A stretch of DNA of 41,454 nt from a virus. The notes under the pieces are model-generated. The model ran no database searches. It worked only from the letters and a program-made list of their open reading frames with translations, and was not told the DNA's origin. Positions 7,603 to 41,351 of this stretch are shown here, piece after piece. Numbering within the stretch: the first letter of the stretch is position 1; each line of letters opens with the position of its first letter. Both the position numbers and the translations under genes were made by a program. The stretch covers positions 1 through 41,454 of the IMG/VR virus record IMGVR_UViG_3300005289_000009; one strand, written 5' to 3'.

Positions 7603-8012
7603 ACGCTCTTCCCGACATGTCGCTGGCGGTAGTGGGCGCTCGTCACAAGAATGCGGACGGTTCCTCGCGCGAGGCGGAGATCGAGGTCTGCGAGCCGGGC
7701 GAACCGGTGTTCCTGCTTCCCGAGCCGGATAACGAGTTCGACCGCCATGCCATCGCGGTGTTCTCATGCCGCGATGTGCAGATCGGCTATGTCAGCGCCG
7801 AGCGCGCGCCGCGCATCGGGACGCTGATAGGGGCAAACGATGTTGTGGCGGTGTTCCAGCGGCCGGGCGACGGGTGCGCCTGGATCCGGGTGTCTTTCGA
7901 CGGCCGGACGCCGGTGCTGACCGATGCCATGATCCTTGGACCAGCTGAAGCGGCAGAGAAGATAGGTGCCGAGCCGGATTTTTATCCGGATGAAGTTTGG
8001 CCGGATGATTGA
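7599..8012 (+). CDS. HIRAN-domain protein, 137 aa
   Basis: A HIRAN domain fills residues about 8-75 (SLAVVGARHKN, EVCEPGEPVFLLPEPDNEFD, RHAIAVF, QIGYVSAERAPRI). In Rad5/HLTF, HIRAN recognises 3'-OH ends of single-stranded DNA, and stand-alone HIRAN proteins are common in phages and bacteria. I chose GTG 7599 because it overlaps the preceding stop by GTGA; ATG 7617 is an alternative. Being in the repressor operon, it is likely made in the lysogen. A role in DNA-end sensing or phage competition is only a guess. Confidence 0.75.
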   Translation: MNALPDMSLAVVGARHKNADGSSREAEIEVCEPGEPVFLLPEPDNEFDRHAIAVFSCRDVQIGYVSAERAPRIGTLIGANDVVAVFQRPGDGCAWIRVSFDGRTPVLTDAMILGPAEAAEKIGAEPDFYPDEVWPDD

Positions 8013-8035
8013 AGATTTCAGCATGGGGGTAACGA

Positions 8036-8719
8036 ATGGCGAAGAAGCCTGGGCTTGGCGAACGTGCATGTCCGAAATGCAAAGAGACCATCAAAGTTGA
8101 TGCGGTCATTTGCAAGCACTGTCGCACCGAATTTTCAGATGACGAAGTTGCGGCAGCCAAGAAAGAATCAAGTTCGGACACCAAGGCTGCAGCAATAGGA
8201 TGCCTTGTCCTGACGCTTGCGCTGGGCTTCTGTTCGTATGTGGTGAGCGATGACGCAGAGGAAGTTGCCGACAAGCCGCAGATTTCGGCCAAGGCCGACG
8301 CGATCGCCTTTTACAAGGGCATGATGGCTGCGATGTCGGAATGCGATAGCGCAAGTAAACGTGTGTCTGACGCGGCGAAATCAAACGATGTTATCGCTCT
8401 GTTTCAGGCGGCCAATACGATGGAACTGAAGTGCTTGGGGGCTCCTTCAGATATTCGGGCCGTGAAGGTTCCGACGAGCGTCGGAAAGGAAGCCTACGGA
8501 AAGCTAAGCGAAACGCGCGACGTATGTGAGAACACGTACCTCGCGAAGTGGTCTGCCGCTGGGAAGATGAAAGAGGCGCTGGACAAGGGCGGCCTGGCAA
8601 ACGTAGCCGCGCTGAAGCAGGACATGGAAATGGCGCAGGCGGGCACGATCGGGTGCGCCGCAGGCTTGATCGGCCAGGTTACCGGATTGGGCGCAAAATC
8701 GAGCGATCTCGAAACGTGA
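8036..8719 (+). CDS. Zinc-ribbon membrane protein in the repressor operon, 227 aa
   Basis: The N-terminal zinc ribbon (CPKCKETIKVDAVICKHC) at residues 12-29 is followed by a charged linker and one membrane helix at about 52-70 (AAAIGCLVLTLALGFCSYVV). A roughly 150-residue domain follows, probably periplasmic, with four cysteines that could pair (ECDSA, KCLGA, VCENT, GCAAG). The ribbon would be cytoplasmic. Last gene of the repressor operon, so a lysogenic-conversion or superinfection-exclusion role is plausible but unproven. GC content is lower than its neighbours, suggesting separate acquisition. Confidence 0.7.
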   Translation: MAKKPGLGERACPKCKETIKVDAVICKHCRTEFSDDEVAAAKKESSSDTKAAAIGCLVLTLALGFCSYVVSDDAEEVADKPQISAKADAIAFYKGMMAAMSECDSASKRVSDAAKSNDVIALFQAANTMELKCLGAPSDIRAVKVPTSVGKEAYGKLSETRDVCENTYLAKWSAAGKMKEALDKGGLANVAALKQDMEMAQAGTIGCAAGLIGQVTGLGAKSSDLET

Positions 8720-15717: not shown

Positions 15718-16080
15718 TCAGGCTGCGAAAGTGGCGGGGAGGGGAATGGAAAGCGTTGTGCGTGCGTTGTGCGCGGGCAGATCGGTGCGGGTTCCGCCGA
15801 CGGTTATCGTCAGCGAACCATCGGCAGGCGTCCCGGAGAGACCGATGCGCGTGACTTTCAGCCGTGGTTCCCAGCGGCGCAGGGCAACAGCGGTGGCGGC
15901 GCGCAGCAGCATCGCGGTGGCGCTGGTAAGGGGCTGGTCGATAAGGTCGAAAAGGAGCGAGCCATAGTCACGCCGCATCGGCCGCGTACCCAGCGGCGTG
16001 CCGAGGATGTCGCCGATCGACTGCACAAGGTGCGCGGTGCCGTCGAGGCTCTGGCCGGTGGTGGCGTTCATCCCTTTCAT
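15718..16080 (-). CDS. W: P2 gpW-like baseplate protein (gp25 family), 120 aa
   Basis: Matches the W/gp25 wedge family: HLVQSIGDILGTPLGTRPMRRDYGS, then AVALRRWEPRLKVTRI. It forms part of the baseplate wedge. It lies right after the thermonuclease gene rather than directly beside V, and before FI. ATG 16080 or 16071 could be the start; neither has a good ribosome site. Confidence 0.9.
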   Translation of the reverse strand: MKGMNATTGQSLDGTAHLVQSIGDILGTPLGTRPMRRDYGSLLFDLIDQPLTSATAMLLRAATAVALRRWEPRLKVTRIGLSGTPADGSLTITVGGTRTDLPAHNARTTLSIPLPATFAA

Positions 16081-16159
16081 GGTCGGGACGAAAGCGCCAA
16101 AGGCGCGCGATACGCCAGAGGGTGGCTAGGTAAGCGGCCTCGTTACCAAGCCGGCTACG

Positions 16160-16519
16160 TTACCAGCGACGCGCGACGCCTTTTGCGATCAGGTATTCGC
16201 CTGCATCCTGTCCCCTGACCGATAGCTTGGCGAGGGTGCGGCCGTAGCGATCCTTGCCGATGCGCTCAATCTGTACAGGGCCGGAGGCGAGAAGGGCGGC
16301 CAGACTGTTGCGGCTGCGTACTGCCAGGTCATAATCGCACCATCCGGCCGAGGCACGGCCTCGCCTGGCGCTGGAGGCGCAGCGCGGACTGCCCGGCAAT
16401 TCGGGCGCGTCGATGTTGGCGATGCGGATCCGCTCGCCTCCACAAGTCCGGATGGTATCGCCATCGTGAACGTTTGCGACACAGAGCGCAGCGGAAGCGA
16501 GAAGGGAGAGCATAGCCAT
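16160..16519 (-). CDS. Thermonuclease-family (SNase) protein, secreted, 119 aa
   Basis: A staphylococcal-nuclease fold with its catalytic residues: HDGDTIR near residue 20, then RIRIANIDAPEL (Arg, Asp and Glu of the active site) and KDRYGRTLAKL (second Arg). Residues 1-15 (MAMLSLLASAALCVA) look like a signal peptide, so it should act outside the cytoplasm. Thermonucleases cut DNA and RNA with calcium. Wedged between baseplate genes V and W, it may be carried in the virion or made late to degrade host or competitor DNA; that role is inferred. Confidence 0.82.
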   Translation of the reverse strand: MAMLSLLASAALCVANVHDGDTIRTCGGERIRIANIDAPELPGSPRCASSARRGRASAGWCDYDLAVRSRNSLAALLASGPVQIERIGKDRYGRTLAKLSVRGQDAGEYLIAKGVARRW

Positions 16520-16538
16520 GGCGACGGCGTAGCTGGCG

Positions 16539-17111
16539 TCAAGCGGGGGTGCCAGTCTGGGAAGAGCCGGACTGGACGTTTCCGTGCCGGTGCGTCTGCA
16601 GGCTGACACTGCCGGCCTTGATGTCACCGGTCGCATCCAACTTCCCGGCCAGAGTGACATCGCCCTCGATCTTCACCGGGCCGCGAAATACCATGCCGCC
16701 CGGAGCGTCGATCAACGCGGTGCCAGCGGCGGGCAGAATGGCCGTGAGCGCGTGGGCGGTAGGGTCGTAGCCGATCACGGCGCCGTCCTCGAACTCGACA
16801 AGCTCAGCCACCGTGCTGCCGGAAGCCGGAAACTCATCCGAATAGATGCCAACAAGTGCCACCGCCCCGGCGAGCTGGCCATCCGGGGCCAGGACCACCG
16901 CCTGTTCGCCCACGCTGGGTGGCGACCAGGCCCGCGTCTTGCCAGCGCGCATCGCAAGCCAGCGAATCGGCGGCGTCGTCGCCCCGCCGCCCTCGTCATC
17001 CGGGTCGCCATAGCGGACCGTGCAAGTGGCGGCCGCAAGATCGACCGTGGCAATGGTGCCGAGGCGGATCAGCTCCGACAGATCGGCGGGGATGTCTTCT
17101 TGTTGGCGCAT
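16539..17111 (-). CDS. V: Baseplate spike gpV, 190 aa
   Basis: Opens with LSELIRLGTIATVDLAAATCTVRYGD, the OB-fold start of gpV/gp5-type spikes, followed by WSPPSVGEQAVVLAPDGQL. The C-terminal third (GPVKIEGDVTLAGKLDATGD) is the repeating beta-helix, ending in THRHGN. That HxH pair matches the iron-binding tip of P2 gpV. It pierces the outer membrane. Confidence 0.93.
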   Translation of the reverse strand: MRQQEDIPADLSELIRLGTIATVDLAAATCTVRYGDPDDEGGGATTPPIRWLAMRAGKTRAWSPPSVGEQAVVLAPDGQLAGAVALVGIYSDEFPASGSTVAELVEFEDGAVIGYDPTAHALTAILPAAGTALIDAPGGMVFRGPVKIEGDVTLAGKLDATGDIKAGSVSLQTHRHGNVQSGSSQTGTPA

Positions 17112-17128
17112 GCGGGCAAAGTCCGACC

Positions 17129-18460
17129 TTATGGCAAGGCAAGCGCGAGCAGCATCGCGACCACGCGCTGTTTAATCCGCTGATAGCCGCGCCAGTTGGC
17201 GTGCAGGCCGTCATTGGTCAGTGCCTTGCCGGTGGAGCCGCCTGTACCGCCGCCTTCTACTTCCCACTTTCCAGAGTTGATACCGTTTTCCATAGCGGCC
17301 GCGATGTCTAGCACGGCGTCGACATCGGGAACCATCCGGGCGCGCAGAAGGTCGTTTACGCCAGTCCGGAGGCTGTTGTTCCCCGAAACTGTTTGGGTGG
17401 AGCCATCGGCTACGTCATATTCTGTTCCCGATGACAATCCCGAACTGGGGCACATCGTCGCCCAGAGGACTTTACGGCCCGAGGGTGCAAGCCATGTTTT
17501 ACCCAGCGCCGCCGCCGCCGTGATATCGGCCGAAAGTTGCGCCACAGTGCGGCTGTCGGCGATGTCGTTGATCGACCAGTTGCCCACCATGTGGCTGAAA
17601 TACGGCATAAGCGCCTGTCGCCGCGTGCTGTTCGGAAGCCACTGATATAGCTTCGCCGAAGGGCAACCGAGATTGAGGTAGGCGAAATGCTCGCCGATGC
17701 CCCGGCACAGTTCGCCCAGATTGCCGGTCGCGTCGAAAGTGTCGCCCACGCCCTGCACGCGACTATCGCCGAACGCGTAGAAGCTGGGGCGACGGGTCTG
17801 GCCCACGATCAGAACCGGATAGAGGTTGTTTGCGCTGGTCCCGCTCGCGATGGCGCCGCCCGTGGTCTTGTCACTGAACGCGGCAGGCGTGGCGCTTGCC
17901 TCGGCGATTTGGTTGATCGCCGCGCTGTTTGATGCCGTGTATTGGAAGAAAGGAATTTGCACCGTCGCTTCGGCGTGCCAGCGAAGCAGGAAGGCCGCGC
18001 CGCGCGGGATCGGCGTCGCCAGTTCCAGCGCGTCGGAAAGCGCACTGGTAACGCCGTTGGCAATCGCTCCAGTGTTGGCGGCGCCGGACCACGTGAAGGT
18101 CTGCCAATTACCGGTCGCTGGAGTGGCGGCAATCGGATACTGGATTGAGGCCGAAACCGTTAACGTACCGCCGCTGCCCTCCTCGTAAGGTGCATCGTTG
18201 CGGTGACGCCAGTTGGCATAGGCCACCTGAAGTTCAGAAATGTCTTCTTGGGCAACGTGGAAGGTCTGCCCGTTGCCGCTCCTGAACCCGGTCGCAATAT
18301 TGTTCGGGATCACAGACCGCGTTGCCACCTGGCCCAGATACTGGGGCAGGATCGGCAGGCTGGTCCCGCGCGCCCAGCGCGCCAGGGCTTCGCCGACAGC
18401 GCCGTCAAAAGCGTTCCGGTCCGCACCGGGCGCGATGTTATCGATCTGAACCTTAGCCAT
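17129..18460 (-). CDS. SGNH/GDSL hydrolase, probable virion esterase, 443 aa
   Basis: The first 200 residues look like a beta-rich virion attachment region. The hydrolase follows: block I FYAFGDSRVQG (catalytic Ser), an Asn-bearing block III near HMVGNWSINDI, and block V DGLHAN (Asp and His). Such enzymes remove acyl groups from surface polysaccharide. The two small genes just upstream encode a GTA-type spike base and a small partner, so I read the three as a receptor or capsule-processing spike. The protein could also attach to the baseplate, since V follows directly. Confidence 0.8.
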   Translation of the reverse strand: MAKVQIDNIAPGADRNAFDGAVGEALARWARGTSLPILPQYLGQVATRSVIPNNIATGFRSGNGQTFHVAQEDISELQVAYANWRHRNDAPYEEGSGGTLTVSASIQYPIAATPATGNWQTFTWSGAANTGAIANGVTSALSDALELATPIPRGAAFLLRWHAEATVQIPFFQYTASNSAAINQIAEASATPAAFSDKTTGGAIASGTSANNLYPVLIVGQTRRPSFYAFGDSRVQGVGDTFDATGNLGELCRGIGEHFAYLNLGCPSAKLYQWLPNSTRRQALMPYFSHMVGNWSINDIADSRTVAQLSADITAAAALGKTWLAPSGRKVLWATMCPSSGLSSGTEYDVADGSTQTVSGNNSLRTGVNDLLRARMVPDVDAVLDIAAAMENGINSGKWEVEGGGTGGSTGKALTNDGLHANWRGYQRIKQRVVAMLLALALP

Positions 18461-18676
18461 TTATCGCACTCCAAGAAAAACGCCCGAAGGCAGTATGAGG
18501 GAGGCGCCGGAAGGCAGGACCAGCGCTCCGTCGGGGACCGTTTCGCGAACAAGGCCCGCTGCAATCAGCGTCGCCAGCACGCCGGAAACTTCGGTAACGT
18601 TGGCCAGCGCAGTAGCGACCGCTTCGTCACTGGGGATGCCCGTGCCGCCGATGGCGCCGGAAAATCGCCGTGCCAT
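18461..18676 (-). CDS. Small hypothetical protein of the spike module, 71 aa
   Basis: Ser/Gly/Ala-rich with a hydrophobic helix-like centre (ATALANVTEVSGVLATLIAAGL) and a strand-rich tail (DGALVLPSGASLILPSGVFLGV). It lies between the spike base protein and the SGNH hydrolase, with gaps of a few bases, so it is presumably a structural partner. No family recognised. Confidence 0.65.
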   Translation of the reverse strand: MARRFSGAIGGTGIPSDEAVATALANVTEVSGVLATLIAAGLVRETVPDGALVLPSGASLILPSGVFLGVR

Positions 18677-18679
18677 GGG

Positions 18680-18946
18680 TCAGGCCTCCGCGATCAGATC
18701 GCTGGCCGTGGTGCCGGTTTCCCGGACAAACCTGGCTCGCACGTTGATATAGCTGGCGTCCGGGAGGTTGCGGTAGGTCACGTCCGCTTCACTATGGATC
18801 CCTCGCAGCGTCACATCACCGCCGGTGCCCACGTAGATGCCCTTGGGGATGATCGGGAGTTCATCGTTGTCGGATGGGACGATCGGGTAGGGCGCCCGCG
18901 ACGGATGGCCGAGGCTATCGGCGGAGGAGGCGAACTTGTCGGACAC
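18680..18946 (-). CDS. Spike base protein, RCAP_Rcc01079-like, 88 aa
   Basis: DSLGHPSRAPYPIVPSDNDE, then KGIYVGTGGDVTLRG and DVTYRNLPDASYINVRARFVRETGTTASDLI match the pattern of the small spike base proteins first seen in the Rhodobacter capsulatus gene transfer agent (Rcc01079), where head spikes bind the polysaccharide capsule. Its presence with an SGNH hydrolase suggests a capsule or O-antigen binding device. The virion location here (head or tail) is unknown. The family call rests on motif memory. Confidence 0.75.
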   Translation of the reverse strand: MSDKFASSADSLGHPSRAPYPIVPSDNDELPIIPKGIYVGTGGDVTLRGIHSEADVTYRNLPDASYINVRARFVRETGTTASDLIAEA

Positions 18947-18958
18947 GGCAGGTTCCTT

Positions 18959-19549
18959 TCAGGGGACGACGGTTGGCGCGGTGGCAGGAATGGCGAGGCC
19001 CCGCGATCTCAGCCCGGCGGCGAAGGCATGGGCGCCGGCGGCGTAGACCCAGGCGGCATCGCAGGCGTCGAGGTCGGATTCGCTTGTCGCCACGAGGGCG
19101 CCGGCGGCGGCGTCCGAAGAAATGGCGGGATCTCGATCGGCGGCGGCGGGGTCGAAAGACAGGATCGGCTGTCCCGCGTCCCGCAGGCGGTGAGCAGAGA
19201 CGTAAGCGCGCAGGCCAGCGTTATCCGATGACATGCGATCGACCAGCGTTTGGGCATCGCGGGAAGTTTCCTTTCCTTTGTCGAGCAATCGTGCGCGTTC
19301 GACCTTTGCCGCGTTGGCCTGACGTTTCCATTCGGCCATGGCGGCCTTGAAGTTGGCCTTTGTTTCACGGTGTGAGGCCTGTTCCAGTTCCGATCGGCGG
19401 TGCCATTGATCCGCGCGGCCTGTCTGCCACCAGGCGAAGGTCAGCGCGGCGGCGAAGGCAACCGGCCATGGATGACGCCCAACGAGTGCGACCGCGCCTG
19501 CCACAAGCTTCCTCGCGCTGCCGAGCAACGTGATGGCCGCCGTGATCAC
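18959..19549 (-). CDS. Rz: Rz-like inner-membrane spanin, 196 aa
   Basis: GTG start at 19549 overlaps the endolysin stop by GTGA. One N-terminal membrane helix (residues about 20-38, HPWPVAFAAALTFAWW) is followed by a long, charged, coiled-coil-like periplasmic region (SELEQASHRETKANFKAAMAEWKRQANAAKVERARLLDKGKE). This is the layout of Rz i-spanins, which fuse inner and outer membranes after wall degradation. An overlapping Rz1 lies inside it in another frame. Confidence 0.82.
   Translation of the reverse strand: MITAAITLLGSARKLVAGAVALVGRHPWPVAFAAALTFAWWQTGRADQWHRRSELEQASHRETKANFKAAMAEWKRQANAAKVERARLLDKGKETSRDAQTLVDRMSSDNAGLRAYVSAHRLRDAGQPILSFDPAAADRDPAISSDAAAGALVATSESDLDACDAAWVYAAGAHAFAAGLRSRGLAIPATAPTVVP
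19009..19257 (-). CDS. Rz1: Rz1-like outer-membrane lipoprotein spanin, 82 aa, embedded in Rz
   Basis: Entirely inside Rz in a different frame. The N-terminus has a short basic region and hydrophobic stretch ending in a lipobox (LACALTSLLTAC), so the mature protein would start at a lipidated cysteine. It is followed by proline-rich sequence (STPPPPIEIPPF, RTPPPAPS), the hallmark of Rz1 proteins. The start at 19257 is the nearest good ATG; others upstream are possible. Confidence 0.75.
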   Translation of the reverse strand: MPKRWSIACHRITLACALTSLLTACGTRDSRSCLSTPPPPIEIPPFLRTPPPAPSWRQANPTSTPAMPPGSTPPAPMPSPPG

Positions 19550-20136
19550 AGGCCGACGAGGCAGACCGCCTCTTCCCCCTTTCGCCGGGCAACCAGTCCA
19601 GGCAGCACCTTGCCGCCGGCCTGATTCCACCAGGTCAGCGCCGCGCATCCGCCAGCATAGTTACCCGCGTTGAAGCGGTTGCGCGCGGTGGAGCTGCAAT
19701 ATCTTCGCGCGCCAATGTTGTAGGCGAGCGAGGTCGCGGCAAAACGTGGCCCCTCGCGGCGCTTCTCGATCTTCGGATCGGCCGAAAGCGCGAGGCCCGG
19801 CGTGCAGGCCATCATTTCCCGGGCGTGCTTCACCAGCTCATCTTCGAGCATCTCCGCGCACTGGCCTTCTGTGAAGCTCTGCCCCGCCCGTAGGGGCTCG
19901 CCCTGATAGGTGGTGATGCCGTCGCAGGCTGTCGCGACGCCGACGACGTCGAGATAGACTTTCAGATACTGGCGACCGGAAATGTGCCGCACGCTCAGCT
20001 CGCCGGTCGGCGAGATAGTTGCCTCTACCTTGCGGCCGCTTTCCTCGGCGGGAATGAACGCGCCGAGCGCGGCTGCCACACTTATGCCGACGACGCTGGC
20101 GAGCGTGACCTTCTTTTTCGTTGCCGGCCTAGCCAT
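19546..20136 (-). CDS. SAR endolysin, GH24-like lysozyme, 196 aa
   Basis: Probable muramidase that lyses the host wall. An N-terminal helix of modest hydrophobicity (VTLASVVGISVAAALGAFIPAEE) suits a signal-arrest-release anchor, as in P21 R. The lysozyme core has YLDVVGVATACDGITT, giving the Asp and Thr of the GH24 triad. The usual catalytic Glu nine residues before the Asp is Gly here (ISGRQYLKVYLD). Six further cysteines may control activity. It overlaps the holin stop (20129) and the Rz start. Confidence 0.85.
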   Translation of the reverse strand: MARPATKKKVTLASVVGISVAAALGAFIPAEESGRKVEATISPTGELSVRHISGRQYLKVYLDVVGVATACDGITTYQGEPLRAGQSFTEGQCAEMLEDELVKHAREMMACTPGLALSADPKIEKRREGPRFAATSLAYNIGARRYCSSTARNRFNAGNYAGGCAALTWWNQAGGKVLPGLVARRKGEEAVCLVGL

Positions 20137-20368
20137 CGTCGCGGCTCCCTTTGCTGGTGATGCGGGCGCTGATAGCCGCCGCTGCGATGACCACGCCGAC
20201 AAGGGGGCGGGTCCAGTCGGGGAGTATGGCCATGACGTTCGTGAAGCCCTGGGGATCGCTGGCGGCCCAGCCACTGACGGCACCTGCAACGACCGCGAGG
20301 CGCACGCTCGACCAGCGCCAGCAGTGGCGCCACTCTGCGACCAGGCGCAGTTTGAGACGGTTCAGCAT
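20129..20368 (-). CDS. Putative holin, 79 aa, two membrane segments
   Basis: Two hydrophobic stretches (about residues 22-37 and 50-68: SVRLAVVAGAVSGWAA and TRPLVGVVIAAAAISARI) with a basic N-terminus and a charged tail, the size and shape of a pinholin or class II holin. GGAA lies upstream of ATG 20368. It is immediately upstream of the SAR endolysin and overlaps it by eight bases, which is the lysis-cassette position. Confidence 0.75.
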   Translation of the reverse strand: MLNRLKLRLVAEWRHCWRWSSVRLAVVAGAVSGWAASDPQGFTNVMAILPDWTRPLVGVVIAAAAISARITSKGSRDDG

Positions 20369-20562
20369 TCGTCCGATTTCCTTCGGTTGATGAACGCCTG
20401 CACGGTGTCGGTTTCGTAGATCCGGATGGCGGTCCAAAGGATGGTGAGTACGGAGGCGACGGCAGGCAGCACGCTGATCAAGCTCCCCAGCAAGGCGGTT
20501 ACGGAGAGTGCGTCGAACAGGTGCTTGATACCGTCCGGCAGGTGGTCGAGCGGCGACTTCAC
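20362..20562 (-). CDS. Small membrane protein of the lysis cassette, 66 aa
   Basis: A long hydrophobic region (residues about 17-48: FDALSVTALLGSLISVLPAVASVLTILWTA) could form two short helices, followed by a charged tail with NRRKSDEC. It overlaps the putative holin by seven bases, so it may be a second holin or an antiholin. No family assigned. Confidence 0.7.
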   Translation of the reverse strand: MKSPLDHLPDGIKHLFDALSVTALLGSLISVLPAVASVLTILWTAIRIYETDTVQAFINRRKSDEC

Positions 20563-20825
20563 GGGGCAGGCTCTTCGCCGGGGGCATCATCGATCGGGTC
20601 TGGCGCGGGCGGCGGGTTGGTGATGACGCCGAGGCCGATCTTGTGGGCGACACCAAGCGCAACCTCATCGACGCGCGCTTTCGTTGCGGTCTTGTCGTAG
20701 CTGCCATCGGTCTTGAGCACGGCGTTCACCGTGCGCTCGTGCGTCACATCCCCGCTGGTGAAGGTGACCGGCACAATGCGAGCGGTGCTGTCGTAGGCAC
20801 CGATCTTGAAGGTAAGGTCGGACAT
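20559..20825 (-). CDS. Hypothetical late protein, 88 aa
   Basis: Starts at ATG 20825 after GAAAGGAA. The sequence LTFKIGAYDSTARIVPVTFTSGDVTHERTVNAVL is strand-rich, and the C-terminus is acidic and proline-rich (PPPAPDPIDDAPGEEPAP). Located between the fibre-assembly gene and the lysis cassette. It is probably a small virion or fibre-related protein; no family recognised. Confidence 0.65.
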   Translation of the reverse strand: MSDLTFKIGAYDSTARIVPVTFTSGDVTHERTVNAVLKTDGSYDKTATKARVDEVALGVAHKIGLGVITNPPPAPDPIDDAPGEEPAP

Positions 20826-20836
20826 GCGAGTTCCTT

Positions 20837-21217
20837 TCAGAGGGGGGCTTGAGGCCAGGTAACGGCGGCCAGATCGGTGATGGTTTCGGGCAGATCGCGC
20901 AGCGCCTGGCGGTAGACACACCATGCTGTGCGCTGCGTGGCCGACATCGGCACGTCCGCCAATTGTGAGAAGTCCGAAGCAGCGAGGCGTCGATCGCGCT
21001 CGGCGCGTAGCAGCGCCAAGCCGTCGTTTCCCGATGGCGCGGGAGGATCGAGCGAGATGGGATTGCCGTTATCGTCCGCCGCAATGCATTGGCCCGCCTC
21101 CTGTGCACAGAGCAAGGCGCGGTAGCGTTCGGTGTCGATCGCCTTGGAATCGGCGGGAAAAGCGGCGTGCAGGTCGCTGTCGTAGAAGGCGACCGTCGTG
21201 GGACTGAAGTAAATCAT
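20837..21217 (-). CDS. G: Probable tail fibre assembly protein, 126 aa
   Basis: The C-terminal half has the WxxYRQALRDLPETI...AVTWPQAP pattern of tail fibre assembly proteins, preceded by LLRAERDRRLAASDFSQL as in the same group. It lies directly after the tail fibre gene, the place of P2 gene G. It is expected to help the fibre trimerise. The N-terminal 50 residues (YFSPTTVAFYDSDLHAAFP) are also typical. Confidence 0.8.
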   Translation of the reverse strand: MIYFSPTTVAFYDSDLHAAFPADSKAIDTERYRALLCAQEAGQCIAADDNGNPISLDPPAPSGNDGLALLRAERDRRLAASDFSQLADVPMSATQRTAWCVYRQALRDLPETITDLAAVTWPQAPL

Positions 21218-21220
21218 GGC

Positions 21221-24200
21221 TCAAACAGGTCCAACGGCGAAATAGCGACAACCAATGCTGGCCTGGTTGCAGCGGGCGGGAAATGAGGCTCCGGTGATGC
21301 CATTGCTCGACCAGGTGGAGATGTCGCTGGCGGTGGTCACGACGGCCATGGTGACGAGAGTGTAAGGCTCCTCCGAGAAGGCGATCGGGAACGTGACCGT
21401 GATCGCCTGGCCGGCTATCGCCGGTGATGTCCAGCGGCCCCATTGCAAGACCAGACCATTCGACAGGCGCATGTATCCGCTGGCTGACTTGCTTTCCGCG
21501 ATGATGCGCAGGTAATCGCTGCCTTGCAGGCCATCGAGCGTGTCAGCGTCCAGGCCGGAGCCAGATCCGTCATTGCCCGCGTCCCACACGACATTGCCCT
21601 GGCGGGAAATTGGCATAGCGATGTTGAACGGGCCGGTCTGGCTACCAACGCTCCACACCGCAGCATCGCCGCTTCCGGCGTTGCGATAGAGCGCGATGTT
21701 GCCATCTGCCTGGGCAGCGAGCCGCGCAATGACCGATGCAGTCGAATTGAGCGTGAAGGTGACGTTGCCGGAATAGTTTACATCGACCGCCCCGGTAATC
21801 GTGCCGCCAGCGCTATTGTAAGGCGTGTATCCCAGGCGCGCAGGAATGTTGGTGTAGAAACTGCCCTGCTGCCCATCGAGCAGATCGGCATCCAGACCCG
21901 ATCCAGCACCGTCATTGCCCGAGTGCCAGAGTTCGTGCGCAACAGCGCCCATCGACCACCCACCCACTTTCCAGCGGTTGTCCGTGTCGATACCGAAGTA
22001 AGCAGCGTAGGCGTTCGGACGTTCGAACGACATGATCGCAGGGCCGGTGCCGTTTCCGATTGCGTGAAGCGCCGAAAGCGAATTCGGGCGGGCCGCGATC
22101 GACGCGCTATCGGTGGTACGAAAATTGATCGTCGCGGTAACCGTGTCACCCGCACGATTGATGGGCGTGTATCCCAGGCGCGCAGGAATGTTGGTGTAGA
22201 AACTGCCCTGCTGCCCATCGAGCAGATCGGCATCCAGACCCGATCCAGCGCCGTCATTGCCCGCGTCCCAGACAGAATTGTTCTGCCGTGTGATTGGCAT
22301 GGAGATTTCGAACGGGCCGGCCTGACTTTTGACGCTCCACACCGCAGCGTCGTCAATCCCGCCGTTGCGATAAAGCACCACATTGCCATCGGCCTGGGCT
22401 ACTAATCGCGCTATAACAGCACCGCTGCTGTTCAACGACAGGCCAACATTGCCGGCATAGTCGAGCGCCAATGGACCTGACATGGTATCGCCGTCGCGTC
22501 TGACAGGCTGATAGCCCAAGCGCCCAACGATGTCGGAATAATAGCTGCCCTGCTGCCCGTCGAGCAGATCGGCATCCAGCCCGGAGCCGGCGCCATCGTT
22601 CCCGGCATGCCAGACCGTACTCGAATTGAATTGCATGGACGTGTCGGAAATCAAGAGCCGGGCGGCGCCGCCGACCATGAATGTGTGGCTGACGATCGCG
22701 CCGTTCGAGGTGCGAAAACCATAGCCCAGGCGTCCCGGCTCGCTGGCGATCCCTACAGCGCCGAACCAGTGATTGCCGTTGGCATCCGCCGCGAGGAAAG
22801 TGCGTGCATTGGTGTTCGTGAAACCGGGTACCGTGACAGGGCCGGTGAACGTGTCGCCAGCCTTGTTGGCCGGCGTGAAGCCGAGACGCGCAGGAATGTT
22901 GGTGTAATAGCTGCCCTGCTGCCCGTCGAGCAAATCGGCGTCCAGCCCGGAGCCGGCACCGTCATTGCCGGAGTGCCAAAGTTCGTGCGCCACAGCGCCC
23001 ATCGACCACCCGCCTACTTTCCAGCGGTTGTCCGTGTCGATGCCGAAGTAAGCAGCGTAGGCGTTCGGACGTTCGAACGACATGATCGCCGGGCCGTTGC
23101 CGTTTGCGATTGCGTGAAGCGCCGCGGGCGAATTCGGGCGGGCCGCGATCGACGCGCTATCGCCGGTACGAAAATTGATCGTCGCGGTAACCGTGTCGCC
23201 GGCGCGGTTGATGGGTGTGTATCCCAGGCGCGCGGGGATGCTCGTATAGTAGCTGCTGTCCTGCCCGTCGAGCAGATCGGCATCGAGGCCGGACCCGGCA
23301 CCGTCATTGCCGGAGTGCCAAAGTTCGTGCGCCACAGCGCCCATCGACCACCCGCCCACTTTCCAGCGGTTGTCCGTGTCGATACCGAAGTAAGCAGCGT
23401 AGGCGTTCGGACGTTCGAACGACATGATCGCCGGGCCGGTGCCGTTTCCGATTGCGTGAAGCGCCGCGAGCGAATTCGCGCGGGCCGCGATCGACGCGCT
23501 ATCGGTGGTGCGAAAAAAGATCGTCGCGGTAACCGTGTCACCCGCGCGGTTGATGGGTGTGTATCCCAGGCGCGCGGGGATATTCGTGTAGTAGCTGCCT
23601 TCCTGGCCGTCGAGCAGATCGGCGTCGAGGCCGGAACCGGCGCCGTCATTGCCCGGATGCCAGATCGCGCTATTGCCGGAGCCAAACCGCGCATCCAGTC
23701 GCGTCGACAAAGCATCAGCGAAGGCGCGAGGCGTCACGGCGCGCTGGGTATCGGTCCCGGTGTTCGTCTCGGCGCTTGTGGCAAGTTCGACCACGCCCTG
23801 TCGCGATACCGTCGCCGGAGGGTTGAGGAAATCCGTACCGCCGAACGTCAGCAGCGCCGCGCTGATGTCCGCAAAGACCGTGTCAACGGCCAGTGCGGCG
23901 AAGGACGTCGCTGTCTTGCTCAGGATGGGATCAGCCTGTCCATAAACGGCAAACAGTGTGCCGTCCTGCAGGTAAAGAGCAAAGGCGCGCAGGGTGTACG
24001 CATCAGCACTCTCATCAAGCACGCTGATGTGGATCATGTCATCGGCGACGACATCGCCGGACACCGCCCCGATTCGTTTAAACTCGTCAGGCAAGGCAGT
24101 CATGCCGACAGCCGGCGCAACAGCCGTTTGGGAGAAGCCGACCTGCGCGATGGTGACCGGAGCGGTTCCCGTGTTCGCGGCATTGACCAGCGCGGCACGG

Positions 24201-24232
24201 CCGGCGGTGGTCACAAGGATGTTCAGAGCCAT
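21221..24232 (-). CDS. H: Tail fibre protein gpH, 1003 aa, repeat-rich
   Basis: The N-terminal 180 residues (MALNILVTTAGRAALVNA onward) are the baseplate-attachment domain of P2 H-like fibres, including VSRQGVVELATSAETNTGTD. The shaft contains seven copies of a GNDGAGSGLDADLLDGQ segment and three nearly identical 114-residue modules ending in NRWKVGGWSMGAVAHELWH. Two further copies of a SGNVxLxLNSxxxVIARL block are present. The C-terminus (GYMRLSNGLVLQWGRW, then FAVGPV) is a typical receptor-binding tip. Start at ATG 24232; longer in-frame starts overlap the upstream gene. Confidence 0.92.
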   Translation of the reverse strand: MALNILVTTAGRAALVNAANTGTAPVTIAQVGFSQTAVAPAVGMTALPDEFKRIGAVSGDVVADDMIHISVLDESADAYTLRAFALYLQDGTLFAVYGQADPILSKTATSFAALAVDTVFADISAALLTFGGTDFLNPPATVSRQGVVELATSAETNTGTDTQRAVTPRAFADALSTRLDARFGSGNSAIWHPGNDGAGSGLDADLLDGQEGSYYTNIPARLGYTPINRAGDTVTATIFFRTTDSASIAARANSLAALHAIGNGTGPAIMSFERPNAYAAYFGIDTDNRWKVGGWSMGAVAHELWHSGNDGAGSGLDADLLDGQDSSYYTSIPARLGYTPINRAGDTVTATINFRTGDSASIAARPNSPAALHAIANGNGPAIMSFERPNAYAAYFGIDTDNRWKVGGWSMGAVAHELWHSGNDGAGSGLDADLLDGQQGSYYTNIPARLGFTPANKAGDTFTGPVTVPGFTNTNARTFLAADANGNHWFGAVGIASEPGRLGYGFRTSNGAIVSHTFMVGGAARLLISDTSMQFNSSTVWHAGNDGAGSGLDADLLDGQQGSYYSDIVGRLGYQPVRRDGDTMSGPLALDYAGNVGLSLNSSGAVIARLVAQADGNVVLYRNGGIDDAAVWSVKSQAGPFEISMPITRQNNSVWDAGNDGAGSGLDADLLDGQQGSFYTNIPARLGYTPINRAGDTVTATINFRTTDSASIAARPNSLSALHAIGNGTGPAIMSFERPNAYAAYFGIDTDNRWKVGGWSMGAVAHELWHSGNDGAGSGLDADLLDGQQGSFYTNIPARLGYTPYNSAGGTITGAVDVNYSGNVTFTLNSTASVIARLAAQADGNIALYRNAGSGDAAVWSVGSQTGPFNIAMPISRQGNVVWDAGNDGSGSGLDADTLDGLQGSDYLRIIAESKSASGYMRLSNGLVLQWGRWTSPAIAGQAITVTFPIAFSEEPYTLVTMAVVTTASDISTWSSNGITGASFPARCNQASIGCRYFAVGPV
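21838..22177. repeat. Fibre module repeat, copy A
   Basis: DNA copy of the 114-codon tail fibre module, highly similar to the segments beginning near 22888 and 23230. The copies are in the same frame. Confidence 0.75.
22888..23229. repeat. Fibre module repeat, copy B
   Basis: Second copy, 342 bp before copy C and 1050 bp after copy A, both multiples of three. GTTCGTGCGC marks equivalent points at 21931, 22981 and 23323. Confidence 0.75.
23230..23571. repeat. Fibre module repeat, copy C
   Basis: Third copy, tandem with copy B. Recombination between copies would shorten or lengthen the fibre by 114 residues without a frameshift. Confidence 0.75.
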
Positions 24233-24254
24233 GCGGCTGTCTCCGGATGGCGGC

Positions 24255-24815
24255 TCACGCGGCAGGAGCCTGAGCAAAAATGCGGGCGAACGTGACGGGC
24301 CGGGCTACGGCACGCAGGCCGATCTGGCCGATGCCGTTGACCGCCACGGTGAAATCGAAATGGTCGCGGGCGGACTTGGTACGGCCGACCTCGGCAATCA
24401 CCGCATCGATGAACTCGGCGCTAGGGGCGCCTTCACTCTGACCGCCCAGCGACACAGTCATGTTGAAGGTATGGGGGATGCCGGCCGGTTCGCGTTCGAA
24501 CCACGCGCGCATCACGACGTTGCCGCCGAAACTGGAAATGACGTCGGTGACGGATTTCGCGGTCCCTTTGATTCGCTGGATGGCGATCGCGGCAGCAACA
24601 CGGGCGCGGCGCACTTCGACCGGCCAGTCTGCCGACCACTGATCGACCGACAGCGCCCAGGCAAGCCAAGGGAGCAGCTCTTCCGGACAGTCCCGAGCCG
24701 ACCAGACAGTTCGCAGCGGCGCCGGGATCGCGTCGATCCGATCGTGCTGCAGCTGGTCCGCTGCCTTCACGAGCGGTACGGCATTCGGCGGTGCAAGAGC
24801 GGCGGGAGCACTCAT
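24255..24815 (-). CDS. I: Tail protein gpI, 186 aa
   Basis: Matches P2 I: LPWLAWALSVDQWSADWPVEVRRARVAAAIAIQRIKGTAKSV is diagnostic of the family, which forms part of the baseplate wedge. It overlaps gene J by ATGA and is followed by the fibre gene, as in P2 (J-I-H). Confidence 0.94.
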   Translation of the reverse strand: MSAPAALAPPNAVPLVKAADQLQHDRIDAIPAPLRTVWSARDCPEELLPWLAWALSVDQWSADWPVEVRRARVAAAIAIQRIKGTAKSVTDVISSFGGNVVMRAWFEREPAGIPHTFNMTVSLGGQSEGAPSAEFIDAVIAEVGRTKSARDHFDFTVAVNGIGQIGLRAVARPVTFARIFAQAPAA

Positions 24816-25816
24816 TCCCCGACACCTGCGTCATTCAGCGTGATGCCGGTGCAGTGCCCGGCCTGCTTGCGGGTGAGAACGATGTCGGCTGCGGGACTGA
24901 CGAGGTTGATGTTCTGAACGCCTTCCGGGTGGAGAGCGGCGATGATCCCAGCACGGGTAACGTCGCGGCCAAGCAGTAGCGTGGCGGCCAGATGAGCATC
25001 GAGACGCGACCGTGCCGCCGCCATCACGACGGCACGGTCGGGGCCTGACAGGAACGTCATGTCTGCCACGATCGCGAAGGGTACGATCTCGGCCGATACG
25101 ACGGTCACGTGATCCGTGAGCGGTCGGACATCGTCGGCGGTGAGCGCGGCCGAGACCGTGGCCAGCAGGCCGGCATCGGCAGAGCCGTCCCCAAGGCGCG
25201 AGAGGACCGTCACTGTCACGTCGCCCGGCCAGCTGGCGGCGGCGAGTGCATCGGACATTGCCGTGACCAGCGCGGGTGCCTCACCGTTCGCCGCAAGCAC
25301 GTTCAGCACGATTTGGCGGATGTCGTCCGGCGCCGGGCTGTGGGCCCCAGCATCGGCGACATTGGCACTGGAGGAGAGCGCGTGGAAGATATAGGCGCCG
25401 GTCGGCCCGGCTACCGAGAAGCCTTCGGGCGCGAGCACCATCCGACGGCGCAGGCTGTCGTCGGTTTCGTAAATGGGCGCGACGTTCTGTTCGGGATTGC
25501 CGGGATCGAGCACGAACCGCTCCACGCCGACGATGGCGGCGACATTGTCGAGATCGGCACCCACTGCGAAGGCGGGCATGACGGCTCGCGCGGCATCGTT
25601 GACGCGCTGGCGCAAAATCAGTTCGCGATAGGCGAACAGCTGGAGCAGCAGCACCAGCGGATCGCTTTCAACGGTCGCGCTGAAATCTGGGAAGTAGGTC
25701 TGGAACTGGGCCAGCGCCTGGGCATAGATCGTCTCGAAATCCAGCGCCTCGATCACGTCGGGCGCGGGAAGGCGGGAGAGGTCTACCCCGGTAAAGCTGT
25801 CCGATGCGATGGCCAT
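24812..25816 (-). CDS. J: Baseplate assembly protein gpJ, 334 aa
   Basis: P2 J family: SRLPAPDVIEALDFETIYAQ, then ESDPLVLLLQLFAYRELILRQRVNDAARAVMPAFA, followed by GADLDNVAAIVGVER. Forms the baseplate wedge with I and W. Unlike P2, it follows S directly; V and W lie 8-9 kb downstream. Sixty bases without a gene separate it from S. Confidence 0.94.
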   Translation of the reverse strand: MAIASDSFTGVDLSRLPAPDVIEALDFETIYAQALAQFQTYFPDFSATVESDPLVLLLQLFAYRELILRQRVNDAARAVMPAFAVGADLDNVAAIVGVERFVLDPGNPEQNVAPIYETDDSLRRRMVLAPEGFSVAGPTGAYIFHALSSSANVADAGAHSPAPDDIRQIVLNVLAANGEAPALVTAMSDALAAASWPGDVTVTVLSRLGDGSADAGLLATVSAALTADDVRPLTDHVTVVSAEIVPFAIVADMTFLSGPDRAVVMAAARSRLDAHLAATLLLGRDVTRAGIIAALHPEGVQNINLVSPAADIVLTRKQAGHCTGITLNDAGVGE

Positions 25817-28871: not shown

Positions 28872-29975
28872 TTACGGGCGGTCGCCGAAGGTGATGTTCT
28901 CGGCCATGACCGCAAAATCGGTGTCCTCGAAGACGTAGCCCTCGTTGACGGAGTTGTAGTCAACCAGGCTGGCCATGTTTTCCGGTTCATCCTTGATGTA
29001 CCGGCGGCGCGAACCTTCCTGATAGTAGAGCGACAGATTGCTGAAGGGGGTGACCAGCATGGTGCCTTCGGGGAAGTAGGGCACGATCGCGGCGGGGCGC
29101 CCGCCGATCTGCTTGGCCGACATCACGATGTCCGACACAACCTGATCGCTGACGGAGCGGCCACCGTCGATCGTGTCCGCCAGCGGACGGTTGACCATCG
29201 GGAAGTACTTCTCGTCGACCAGATCCTGGCTGACGATCACGACATGATCGGTCGAGCCGCGCGCCCAGCTGGGCATGCCGGCAATGAGATCGTAGGCGAG
29301 CGCATCGATGTTCTTGTAGTCGCCGTCCGCTGTGTCGGCGTTCTGGCCGATGTAGATCGGCGCGTCGGCGCCGGTGGCGGTGGTCACGCCGCCTGCGGTT
29401 ACGGTCGCGCGTCCCATGACGTGCTCGGCCTTCTCCAGGCGCAGCTTTTGCAGCCACCCGATGTTGACGTCCTCGCCCAGCGGATTGTCTTCCGGATCGG
29501 TATCGGCGGCAGCGGTTTCGCCGTGCCAGCCCACCATGATGCGGCTTTGGGCTACCGAGATGGCGACGTGACGGGCGTAGCGTTGGGCAAAGTCGGGGAA
29601 ACGCGACCATGCGTCGATCACTTCCCAAGGCAACATGGTGTCGAACTGCGTATCGTGCAGCTCATAACGGCGGTTCTGCAGGCTGCCGACGTACTTGGGC
29701 TTGCGCGGCAGGTTGGCGCGCGAGGTGCGGCTCGCGACCAGGCTATTGGTGGTGAGGCCGATGACGTCGCCGATCATGTCGCGCATCGGCATGACGTTGA
29801 TCCGCTGCAGGAAGCCGACTTCCTCGCGCTGCAGATCCTCAAGCCGCTGCTCGGCGGCGGGATCGACCGCGAACTGGTGGCCTACGCCGCGCGGTGCGCC
29901 GTTGAGCTGGGCGATCGCCGTGAAGAGATTGTCGAGAGCCCGGCGGCCGCGATCGGAAAGATTGTACTTCGCCAT
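28872..29975 (-). CDS. N: Major capsid protein gpN, 367 aa
   Basis: P2 N family: FLQRINVMPMRDMIGDVIGL, then HDTQFDTMLPWEVIDAWSRFPDF, MVGWHGETAAADTDPEDNPLGEDVNIGWLQKLR and the late WARGSTDHVVIVSQDLVDEKYFPMVN block. It forms the HK97-fold capsid after removal of the N-terminus by O. About 70 bases separate it from O. Confidence 0.96.
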   Translation of the reverse strand: MAKYNLSDRGRRALDNLFTAIAQLNGAPRGVGHQFAVDPAAEQRLEDLQREEVGFLQRINVMPMRDMIGDVIGLTTNSLVASRTSRANLPRKPKYVGSLQNRRYELHDTQFDTMLPWEVIDAWSRFPDFAQRYARHVAISVAQSRIMVGWHGETAAADTDPEDNPLGEDVNIGWLQKLRLEKAEHVMGRATVTAGGVTTATGADAPIYIGQNADTADGDYKNIDALAYDLIAGMPSWARGSTDHVVIVSQDLVDEKYFPMVNRPLADTIDGGRSVSDQVVSDIVMSAKQIGGRPAAIVPYFPEGTMLVTPFSNLSLYYQEGSRRRYIKDEPENMASLVDYNSVNEGYVFEDTDFAVMAENITFGDRP

Positions 29976-41106: not shown

Positions 41107-41351
41107 GCCGCACCGCCTTCCGCATAGCGGCCTTCCGACCGCGCAATGAATTCCTTCATCATGGCGATCATATCCTCGCGTCCACCATTGCTGATGTAGT
41201 TGACGCGGCCGTGGTCGATATGGCCGAACTCAGCGAGAAGGATGACGAAGCCTACGGTCTTGGGCTTTCCGGGCGGATTGAACATCTCGTCGACCACCCC
41301 GGCGAGGGCGTTCATCTGGATGCGATGCTGCTGCTGGATCGGCTCGTTCAT
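41103..41351 (-). CDS. Hypothetical early protein, 82 aa
   Basis: MNEPIQQQHRIQMNALAGVVDEMFNPPGKPKTVGFVILLAEFGHIDHGRVNYISNG: a helix followed by a strand and a Gly-containing turn, ending in RSEGRYAEGGAA. The C-terminal EGGA resembles that of the neighbour ending at base 12. Family unknown. The start ATG (41351, also base 15) overlaps the stop of that gene by ATGA. Confidence 0.62.
   Translation of the reverse strand: MNEPIQQQHRIQMNALAGVVDEMFNPPGKPKTVGFVILLAEFGHIDHGRVNYISNGGREDMIAMMKEFIARSEGRYAEGGAA

Follow-up and report, generated by a model that had tools for sequence, protein, structure and literature searches.

Where on its particle would a P2-like phage carry a spike of the kind known from gene transfer agents (GTAs), and what would such a spike do? 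The question is raised by three genes in the window, the 41,454-base virus record that was analysed here in its full length. The original prediction read them as a spike module inside a P2-like tail, with a base protein resembling Rcc01079 of the Rhodobacter GTA (RcGTA), a 71-residue protein of unknown nature and a GDS/SGNH enzyme.

A spike base of the Rcc01079 family in a P2-like phage

The window has a P2-type gene set. Its head and packaging matches comprise the P2-type major capsid protein (28872-29975, minus strand; PF05125, E 2.2e-96), which we propose as the docking surface of the spike, the scaffold protein GPO, GPL and the small terminase; further P2-type matches are to GpR, tail protein S, gpV and gpI, and a Phage_integrase match is also present. 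With a P2-type capsid and scaffold and with completion, V and I genes, the window represents a P2-like phage. The trio lies where the original prediction had placed it: all three ORFs are on the minus strand, tightly packed between a lysis cassette (a lysozyme, PF00959, and a weak match to an Rz-like spanin) and the gene for baseplate protein V, the P2-type spike (gpV; 16539-17111, minus strand; TIGR01644, E 5.7e-37, with PF04717 and PF18946), a neighbour that is not thought to belong to the device. The P2 gene order is V-W-J-I-H-G; the block at 15718-25816 (minus strand) reads J-I-H-G, lysis, spike trio, V, SNase, W, and may be a permuted form of it. The SNase of this order is a staphylococcal-nuclease-like ORF between V and W (16160-16660, minus strand; PF00565, E 3.4e-7), and in one viral contig (L126) an SNase-like gene likewise lies shortly downstream of the spike genes. 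A separate tail fibre ORF of 1018 residues (21221-24277, minus strand) contains many GNDGAGSGLDADLLDGQ-like repeat units and is matched repeatedly by several PHROG tail fibre families.

The 88-residue protein (18680-18946, minus strand, GTG start) belongs to the family of RcGTA head-spike bases, and the resemblance first noticed in the sequence alone is thereby confirmed: it matches the profile NF048002 (spike base protein, RCAP_Rcc01079 family) with E 1.7e-26 and 92.3 bits, the curated cut-off being 28, and phmmer aligns it with Rcc01079 in PDB entry 6TB9 with E 4.3e-6. An AlphaFold model built from 19 aligned sequences (mean pLDDT 94.6) has the jelly-roll fold; its top Foldseek match is 6TB9, the RcGTA capsid base (E 4.6e-6; TM 0.87/0.91; rmsd 1.3 on superposition), and the second is 8CJZ, the capsid spike base of phage Carin1 (E 3.8e-3). 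VIA-align gives Z 13.5 and 11.9 for these two entries, and as a third, weak match the STIV capsid turret protein A223 (Z 4.7). Bases in phages are already known, since Westbye et al., according to the available text of PMC8601537, reported that phage RcapNL has a match to Rcc01079. In a P2-like phage (L142), the base occurs as the domain at residues 93-169 of a 171-residue ORF (7725-8237, plus strand), with about 90 additional N-terminal residues ahead of it.

The enzyme and its candidate anchor

The 443-residue protein (17129-18460, minus strand, ATG start) is the proposed spike head. Its score against Lipase_GDSL_2 is below the Pfam cut-off (25.3 of 32.9 bits); it contains, in order, GDS (231-233), N298 and D417-G-L-H420, which we take to be block I (GDS), block III (Asn) and block V (DxxH), and so follows the motif order of the SGNH/GDSL superfamily. 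Proteins of Mesorhizobium, Rhizobium and Shewanella phages are 30-35% identical to it over 78-89% of its length (Lo5R7ANS gp62, 35%; RHph_N2 EVC05_023, 31%; QDWS gp18, 30%), and most of its phage relatives are annotated as SGNH hydrolase or esterase. Judged by its motifs, which are intact, the protein is predicted to be an SGNH hydrolase, in agreement with the original prediction. A single-sequence AlphaFold model of the protein reached a pLDDT of 35 and was set aside, and an alignment of SGNH-type spikes contained too many gaps for trust.

How such an enzyme might be held on a base is suggested by RcGTA, whose fibre Rcc01080 is held in the base by its N-terminal peptide IALGLGLGL (available text of PMC7296036). 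We surveyed the gene directly 3' of the base at 80 loci for such pegs: the window, four phages (L001-L004), a locus of S. hankookensis (L008) and 74 genome loci drawn from the family and class of genome G001. Places scoring below the cut-off were left out, as were five short or partial ones among the 74 above it (G288 second, G028, G313, G344:C373 and G165 second); two G157 matches were counted as one locus, G001 is represented by L008, its copy L123 being dropped, and phage V10 (L005), which has no qualifying next gene, lies outside the 80.

A strict LGLGL-like N-terminus (hydrophobic-G-hydrophobic-G-hydrophobic within the first 24 residues) was found in 33 of the 80 next genes versus 9 of 1228 background ORFs, that is, the other ORFs of the same loci; a second peg, SG[SA].GG within the first 24 residues, was found in 9 of the 80 versus none of the 1228. 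Another 21 of the 80 fit none of the three peg patterns, and several of these are prophage head genes. LGLGL-type pegs follow the base in phages RcapNL, Pben1, P8625 and ZHS. Two prophage-like loci (L089 and L118) have a peg-type protein upstream of the base (MAMLGIGFGL and MRFGLVGLGLG, respectively) and a small terminase gene directly downstream of it.

Peg type correlates with base clade. A tree of 96 bases places that of the window in a clade of 19 rows (clade B; support 100/95), and the second peg occurs at 9 of the 10 survey loci in this clade and at none of the 70 elsewhere; the viral contigs L124 to L130 and L142 of the clade carry the second peg or a looser form, and it was not found in L103, L131 and L134 of the same clade. 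These counts are descriptive, the strict patterns having been picked after part of the data had been viewed, and they are not independent because the loci are related; for both reasons we give exact p-values no weight.

The 71-residue protein (18461-18676, minus strand, ATG start) begins MARRFSGAIGGTGI and does not have the N-terminal alternating Leu/Ile-Gly peptide of the RcGTA two-gene spike. Its N-terminus, MARRFSGAIGG, contains the second peg type (SGAIGG, preceded by F) and its C-terminal part L-x-L-P-S-G repeats; the presence of this other peg type makes the locus a variant and not an RcGTA two-gene spike. By the strict patterns, it is the only peg-B start in the window, and the one other strict hit there is an A-type match in a 60-residue ORF at 41211 (plus strand). 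Profile and phage searches returned no family match above chance and no phage match for it, and its only relative among viral contigs is in the near-identical contig L007. Because it carries the second peg, and is the sole peg-B start of the window, the 71-residue protein is likely to be the anchor of the spike, separate from the enzyme; far from being simply unknown, as first described, it bears the peg that normally anchors a spike. Peg B is not literally an LGLGL peptide, and we infer its binding to the base from its position and its correlation with base clade.

The same order recurs elsewhere. A search of 101 loci for a short peg protein followed by a long gene returned the window, L068, L076 and L132; a fifth hit, L070, was rejected as an out-of-frame ORF within a longer gene. 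At L068 and L076, the base is followed by a peg protein of 47-50 residues of the LGLGL type, with C-terminal LLLEDG repeats comparable to LVLPSGASLILPSG in the 71-residue protein of the window, and then by an SGNH hydrolase. Fused forms also exist: the 461-residue protein after the S. hankookensis base (L008) joins the peg SGAQGG to an SGNH domain (PF13472, E 1.4e-6, below the cut-off; PF19040, E 4.3e-6), and viral contig L128 encodes a 452-residue peg-B protein with a GDSL domain (PF13472, E 2.7e-11). Among the Pfam domains of the 80 base partners, GDSL-type domains are the commonest (PF13472, 12; PF00657, 8; SASA, 3), followed by DUF1565 (7) and by lectin and beta-helix domains (2 each), in a tally where one protein may count under several domains.

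These loci bear on a different reading, which we consider unlikely, that the 71-residue protein is no anchor, that the SGNH protein, secreted or tail-borne, acts independently and lies near the base by chance, and that another phage protein caps the base. The N-terminus of the 443-residue protein is indeed without a peg, and an NF048002 search detected no base in Lo5R7ANS and QDWS, which encode close relatives of the enzyme. The small genes directly 5' of the SGNH gene in Lo5R7ANS, RHph_N2 and QDWS were considered as candidate spike bases and proved not to be bases. By phmmer, the window enzyme has no likeness to the SGNH spikes at other base loci, and so enzyme and base are not clearly co-inherited. 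Against an independent enzyme stand the strict peg-B start of the 71-residue ORF, unique in the window, the peg-SGNH fusions of L008 and L128, and the short-peg/SGNH order of L068 and L076; RHph_N2 points the same way, with an SGNH relative whose start, MSLTLSLGLSINNQLGGGGGGG, is peg-like and continues into a glycine linker, and with a weak base match next to the terminase gene (23 bits, below the cut-off).

Gene spacing invites a further interpretation, namely that the 71- and 443-residue ORFs are in practice one protein, an ancestral peg-SGNH fusion split by an in-frame TAA that arose by recent nonsense mutation or is leaky. The 71-residue gene starts 3 nt past the stop of the base gene, and the ATG of the 443-residue gene abuts the TAA of the 71-residue gene in the same frame; at L068 and L076, the short peg and SGNH genes are likewise in one frame, with TGA plus 1-2 codons between them. 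Such in-frame, one-stop spacing may reflect a split spike, a leaky stop or chance, and conservation of frame in three cases, two of them related, is too small a sample for a test. TAA usually terminates translation efficiently, L007 has the same stop, and the SGNH gene has a clean ATG with a Shine-Dalgarno-like GGAG 8 nt upstream, all of which speak against a single protein and make it, in our judgement, very unlikely. We retain the reading of a separate anchor and enzyme.

Capsid vertex or tail

The original prediction placed the device in the tail, and here our analysis departs from it. The RcGTA base forms a pentamer, and the spikes stand on capsid pentamers (available text of PMC7296036), and the two family members with solved structures, 6TB9 and 8CJZ, are both capsid-borne. 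Many relatives are encoded among head genes: at 12 of the 74 genome loci, the base directly follows the capsid gene, in GTA-type clusters with a prohead protease match before the capsid or fused to it, and in phages ZHS and V10 and at seven further loci (L089, L106, L110, L111, L115, L118 and L119), it lies amid head or packaging genes. Gene names at these seven loci were partly assigned by eye; the head-gene neighbourhoods are also backed by the Pfam names of six next genes. Since solved relatives sit on capsids and relatives are found among head genes, the trio is probably a capsid-vertex spike rather than a part of the tail.

"GTA-type cluster" is a label given by gene content and does not imply that a GTA is produced. 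At L068 and L076, the trio lies directly 3' of the protease and capsid genes; L076 has the order terminase, portal, protease, capsid (PF05065), base, short peg protein, SGNH, and, further along, a gene whose product contains a distal tail domain of the Rcc01695 family. As a marker we chose DUF2460, because none of the 397 family genomes has GTA_TIM (PF13547) over the cut-off, in a search for which Caulobacter served as the positive control; DUF2460 was found in 252 of the 397 at E<=1e-3, and in 250 over the cut-off. It lies 6-7 kb from the base, on the same contig and strand, in at least 6 of the 12 capsid-linked loci (G051, G072, G183, G186, G229 and G266), and occurs in 57 of 67 base genomes versus 195 of the 330 others (Fisher p 4e-5 over the 397 family genomes, part of which phylogeny may explain), although DUF2460 by itself is no proof of a working GTA. 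In the L076 cluster, a TIM barrel other than GTA_TIM, PF23845, is joined to the DUF2460 domain. The window itself is not a GTA cluster as defined by a PF05065 capsid with a DUF2460 or Rcc01695-family distal tail gene; its capsid belongs to PF05125.

A location on the tail, with a base pentamer and enzyme decorating the P2-like tail beside gpV, has several observations in its favour. The trio sits between the lysis cassette and V; the base likewise lies near tail, fibre or lysis genes in RcapNL, P8625, Pben1 and L121, following tail or fibre genes there; and the PHROGs family of the base, PHROG_12296, is named "tail fiber protein". These points count against a capsid spike, as do the difference between the PF05125 capsid of the window and the PF05065 capsid of the GTA-type cluster, the sub-threshold Pfam score of the SGNH protein and the restriction of the relatives of the 71-residue protein to the near-identical L007. 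The same is true of Glu12, which aids docking of Rcc01079 on the RcGTA capsid (available text of PMC7296036): in the phmmer alignment to 6TB9, it is replaced by Gly in the window base. However, base structures have been solved on capsids only, 12 of the 74 genome loci have the base directly 3' of a capsid gene, and the position near V is not conserved in the two other P2-like phages: in L142, the base lies among head genes, between terminase P and scaffold O and with an 823-residue lectin-type protein, and L124 has it on the opposite strand, with J and S to either side, together with a 767-residue peg protein. The differing place of the base in the window, L124 and L142 is more easily reconciled with a mobile cassette than with a part of the baseplate. 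On this evidence, we regard a tail device as quite unlikely and favour, with reasonable confidence, the view that the trio is a mobile cassette of a P2-like phage, encoding a GTA-type head spike at the capsid vertices.

On a P2-type head, such a spike would be assembled as follows. Each capsid pentamer would bear five copies of the 88-residue base; the 71-residue protein would plug into this base pentamer with its N-terminal SGAIGG peg, as Rcc01080 does with its own N-terminus in RcGTA; and the C-terminal half of the 71-residue protein would hold the SGNH hydrolase. The hydrolase would strip ester groups, most likely O-acyl, from a sphingomonad-type exopolysaccharide or capsule, and removal of these esters would help the particle bind or cross the polysaccharide layer ahead of engagement of the tail fibres. 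The trimming of polysaccharide by the predicted enzyme, as originally proposed, is plausible. The surroundings of the S. hankookensis spike (L008) suggest that the putative substrate bond is an O-acyl ester of exopolysaccharide, because possible acyl-adding genes adjoin a possibly acyl-removing spike: upstream of the spike are two Acyl_transf_3 genes together with genes for two glycosyltransferases, one WecG-type and one of family 2, and downstream of it are GH16 and GH10 genes.

Origin, significance and comparison with known systems

The window base is 68-73% identical to chromosomal bases that adjoin polysaccharide genes and to bases of several viral contigs, whereas its identity is 28-34% to those of isolated phages and does not exceed 42% to copies on plasmids in the collections. 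Genes upstream of bases outside the clusters include Wzy_C and glycosyltransferases, in a tally of 71 of 108 prepared proteins that leaves out capsid-linked loci and apparent shadow-frame ORFs. In R. capsulatus, rcc01079-01080 adjoin capsule genes (available text of PMC10218006). From the relatives of its base, we infer a sphingomonad-type host for the window phage.

The earlier suggestion of a device common to GTAs and contractile phages is borne out by the sphingomonad GTA-type clusters, in which base, short peg and SGNH follow the capsid, and by the two other P2-like phages with a related base (L124 and L142). We propose, tentatively and at slightly less than even odds, a wider view: P2-like sphingomonad phages would possess a swappable enzymatic head-spike cassette exchanged with host GTA spike loci; a peg code (LGLGL or SG-A/S-x-GG) matched to base clade would set which enzyme or lectin is placed on the capsid vertices; and one vertex socket would be common to GTAs and phages across unrelated capsids.

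At the corners of its capsid, and not on its tail, the phage of the window probably presents an enzyme that trims polysaccharide. If so, the vertex socket of RcGTA, shared with one podophage capsid according to the title of a PDB entry, would also work on P2-type heads, and would carry enzymes beyond binding fibres; passage of particles through thick exopolysaccharide would be explained, and the evolution of phages and GTAs would be linked through a shared, exchangeable surface part. A peg peptide after a base gene would, in addition, serve as a sequence rule for finding capsid-borne enzymes that are annotated as tail fibre or hypothetical proteins. In the literature searched, which included few subscription journals, we found no description of an SGNH head spike or of bases in P2-like phages; within the same scope, none was found of the split three-gene form, the second peg type or its tie to one base clade.

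Compared with the RcGTA head spike, the window has a base homologous to Rcc01079 (GhsA) with the same fold, a base gene followed by a spike gene (Rcc01080, GhsB, in RcGTA), and a family whose spike genes often adjoin polysaccharide genes, as rcc01079-01080 adjoin those for capsule. The two systems differ in four respects: the window has three genes, with the peg on a separate 71-residue protein; its peg is SGAIGG rather than IALGLGLGL; its spike head is a predicted SGNH enzyme, whereas that of RcGTA is a binding fibre; and it belongs to a P2-like phage with a P2-type capsid. The base of Carin1, a podophage of Cobetia marina (8CJZ, on the mature capsid by its entry title), resembles the window base in fold (Z 11.9) and profile (E 8e-5), although the two are 18-19% identical. 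Closest in layout are the sphingomonad GTA-type clusters L068 (G140) and L076 (G072), which share base, short peg and SGNH in the same order and frame spacing, with LL-x-DG repeats in the short peg protein, but have an LGLGL-type peg (RFGFGFALAL), a base in another clade and an enzyme not detectably like that of the window by phmmer. Alike in base (68% identity) is the spike of the S. hankookensis exopolysaccharide locus (L008), with its SGAQGG peg and SGNH domain; there, peg and enzyme are fused in 461 residues, among polysaccharide genes and outside a phage. Closest in enzyme are Lo5R7ANS gp62 and RHph_N2 EVC05_023, the nearest SGNH relatives (35% and 31% identity, N-terminal region included), which belong to other phage types and differ in their N-terminal anchor, Lo5R7ANS being without a base by NF048002.
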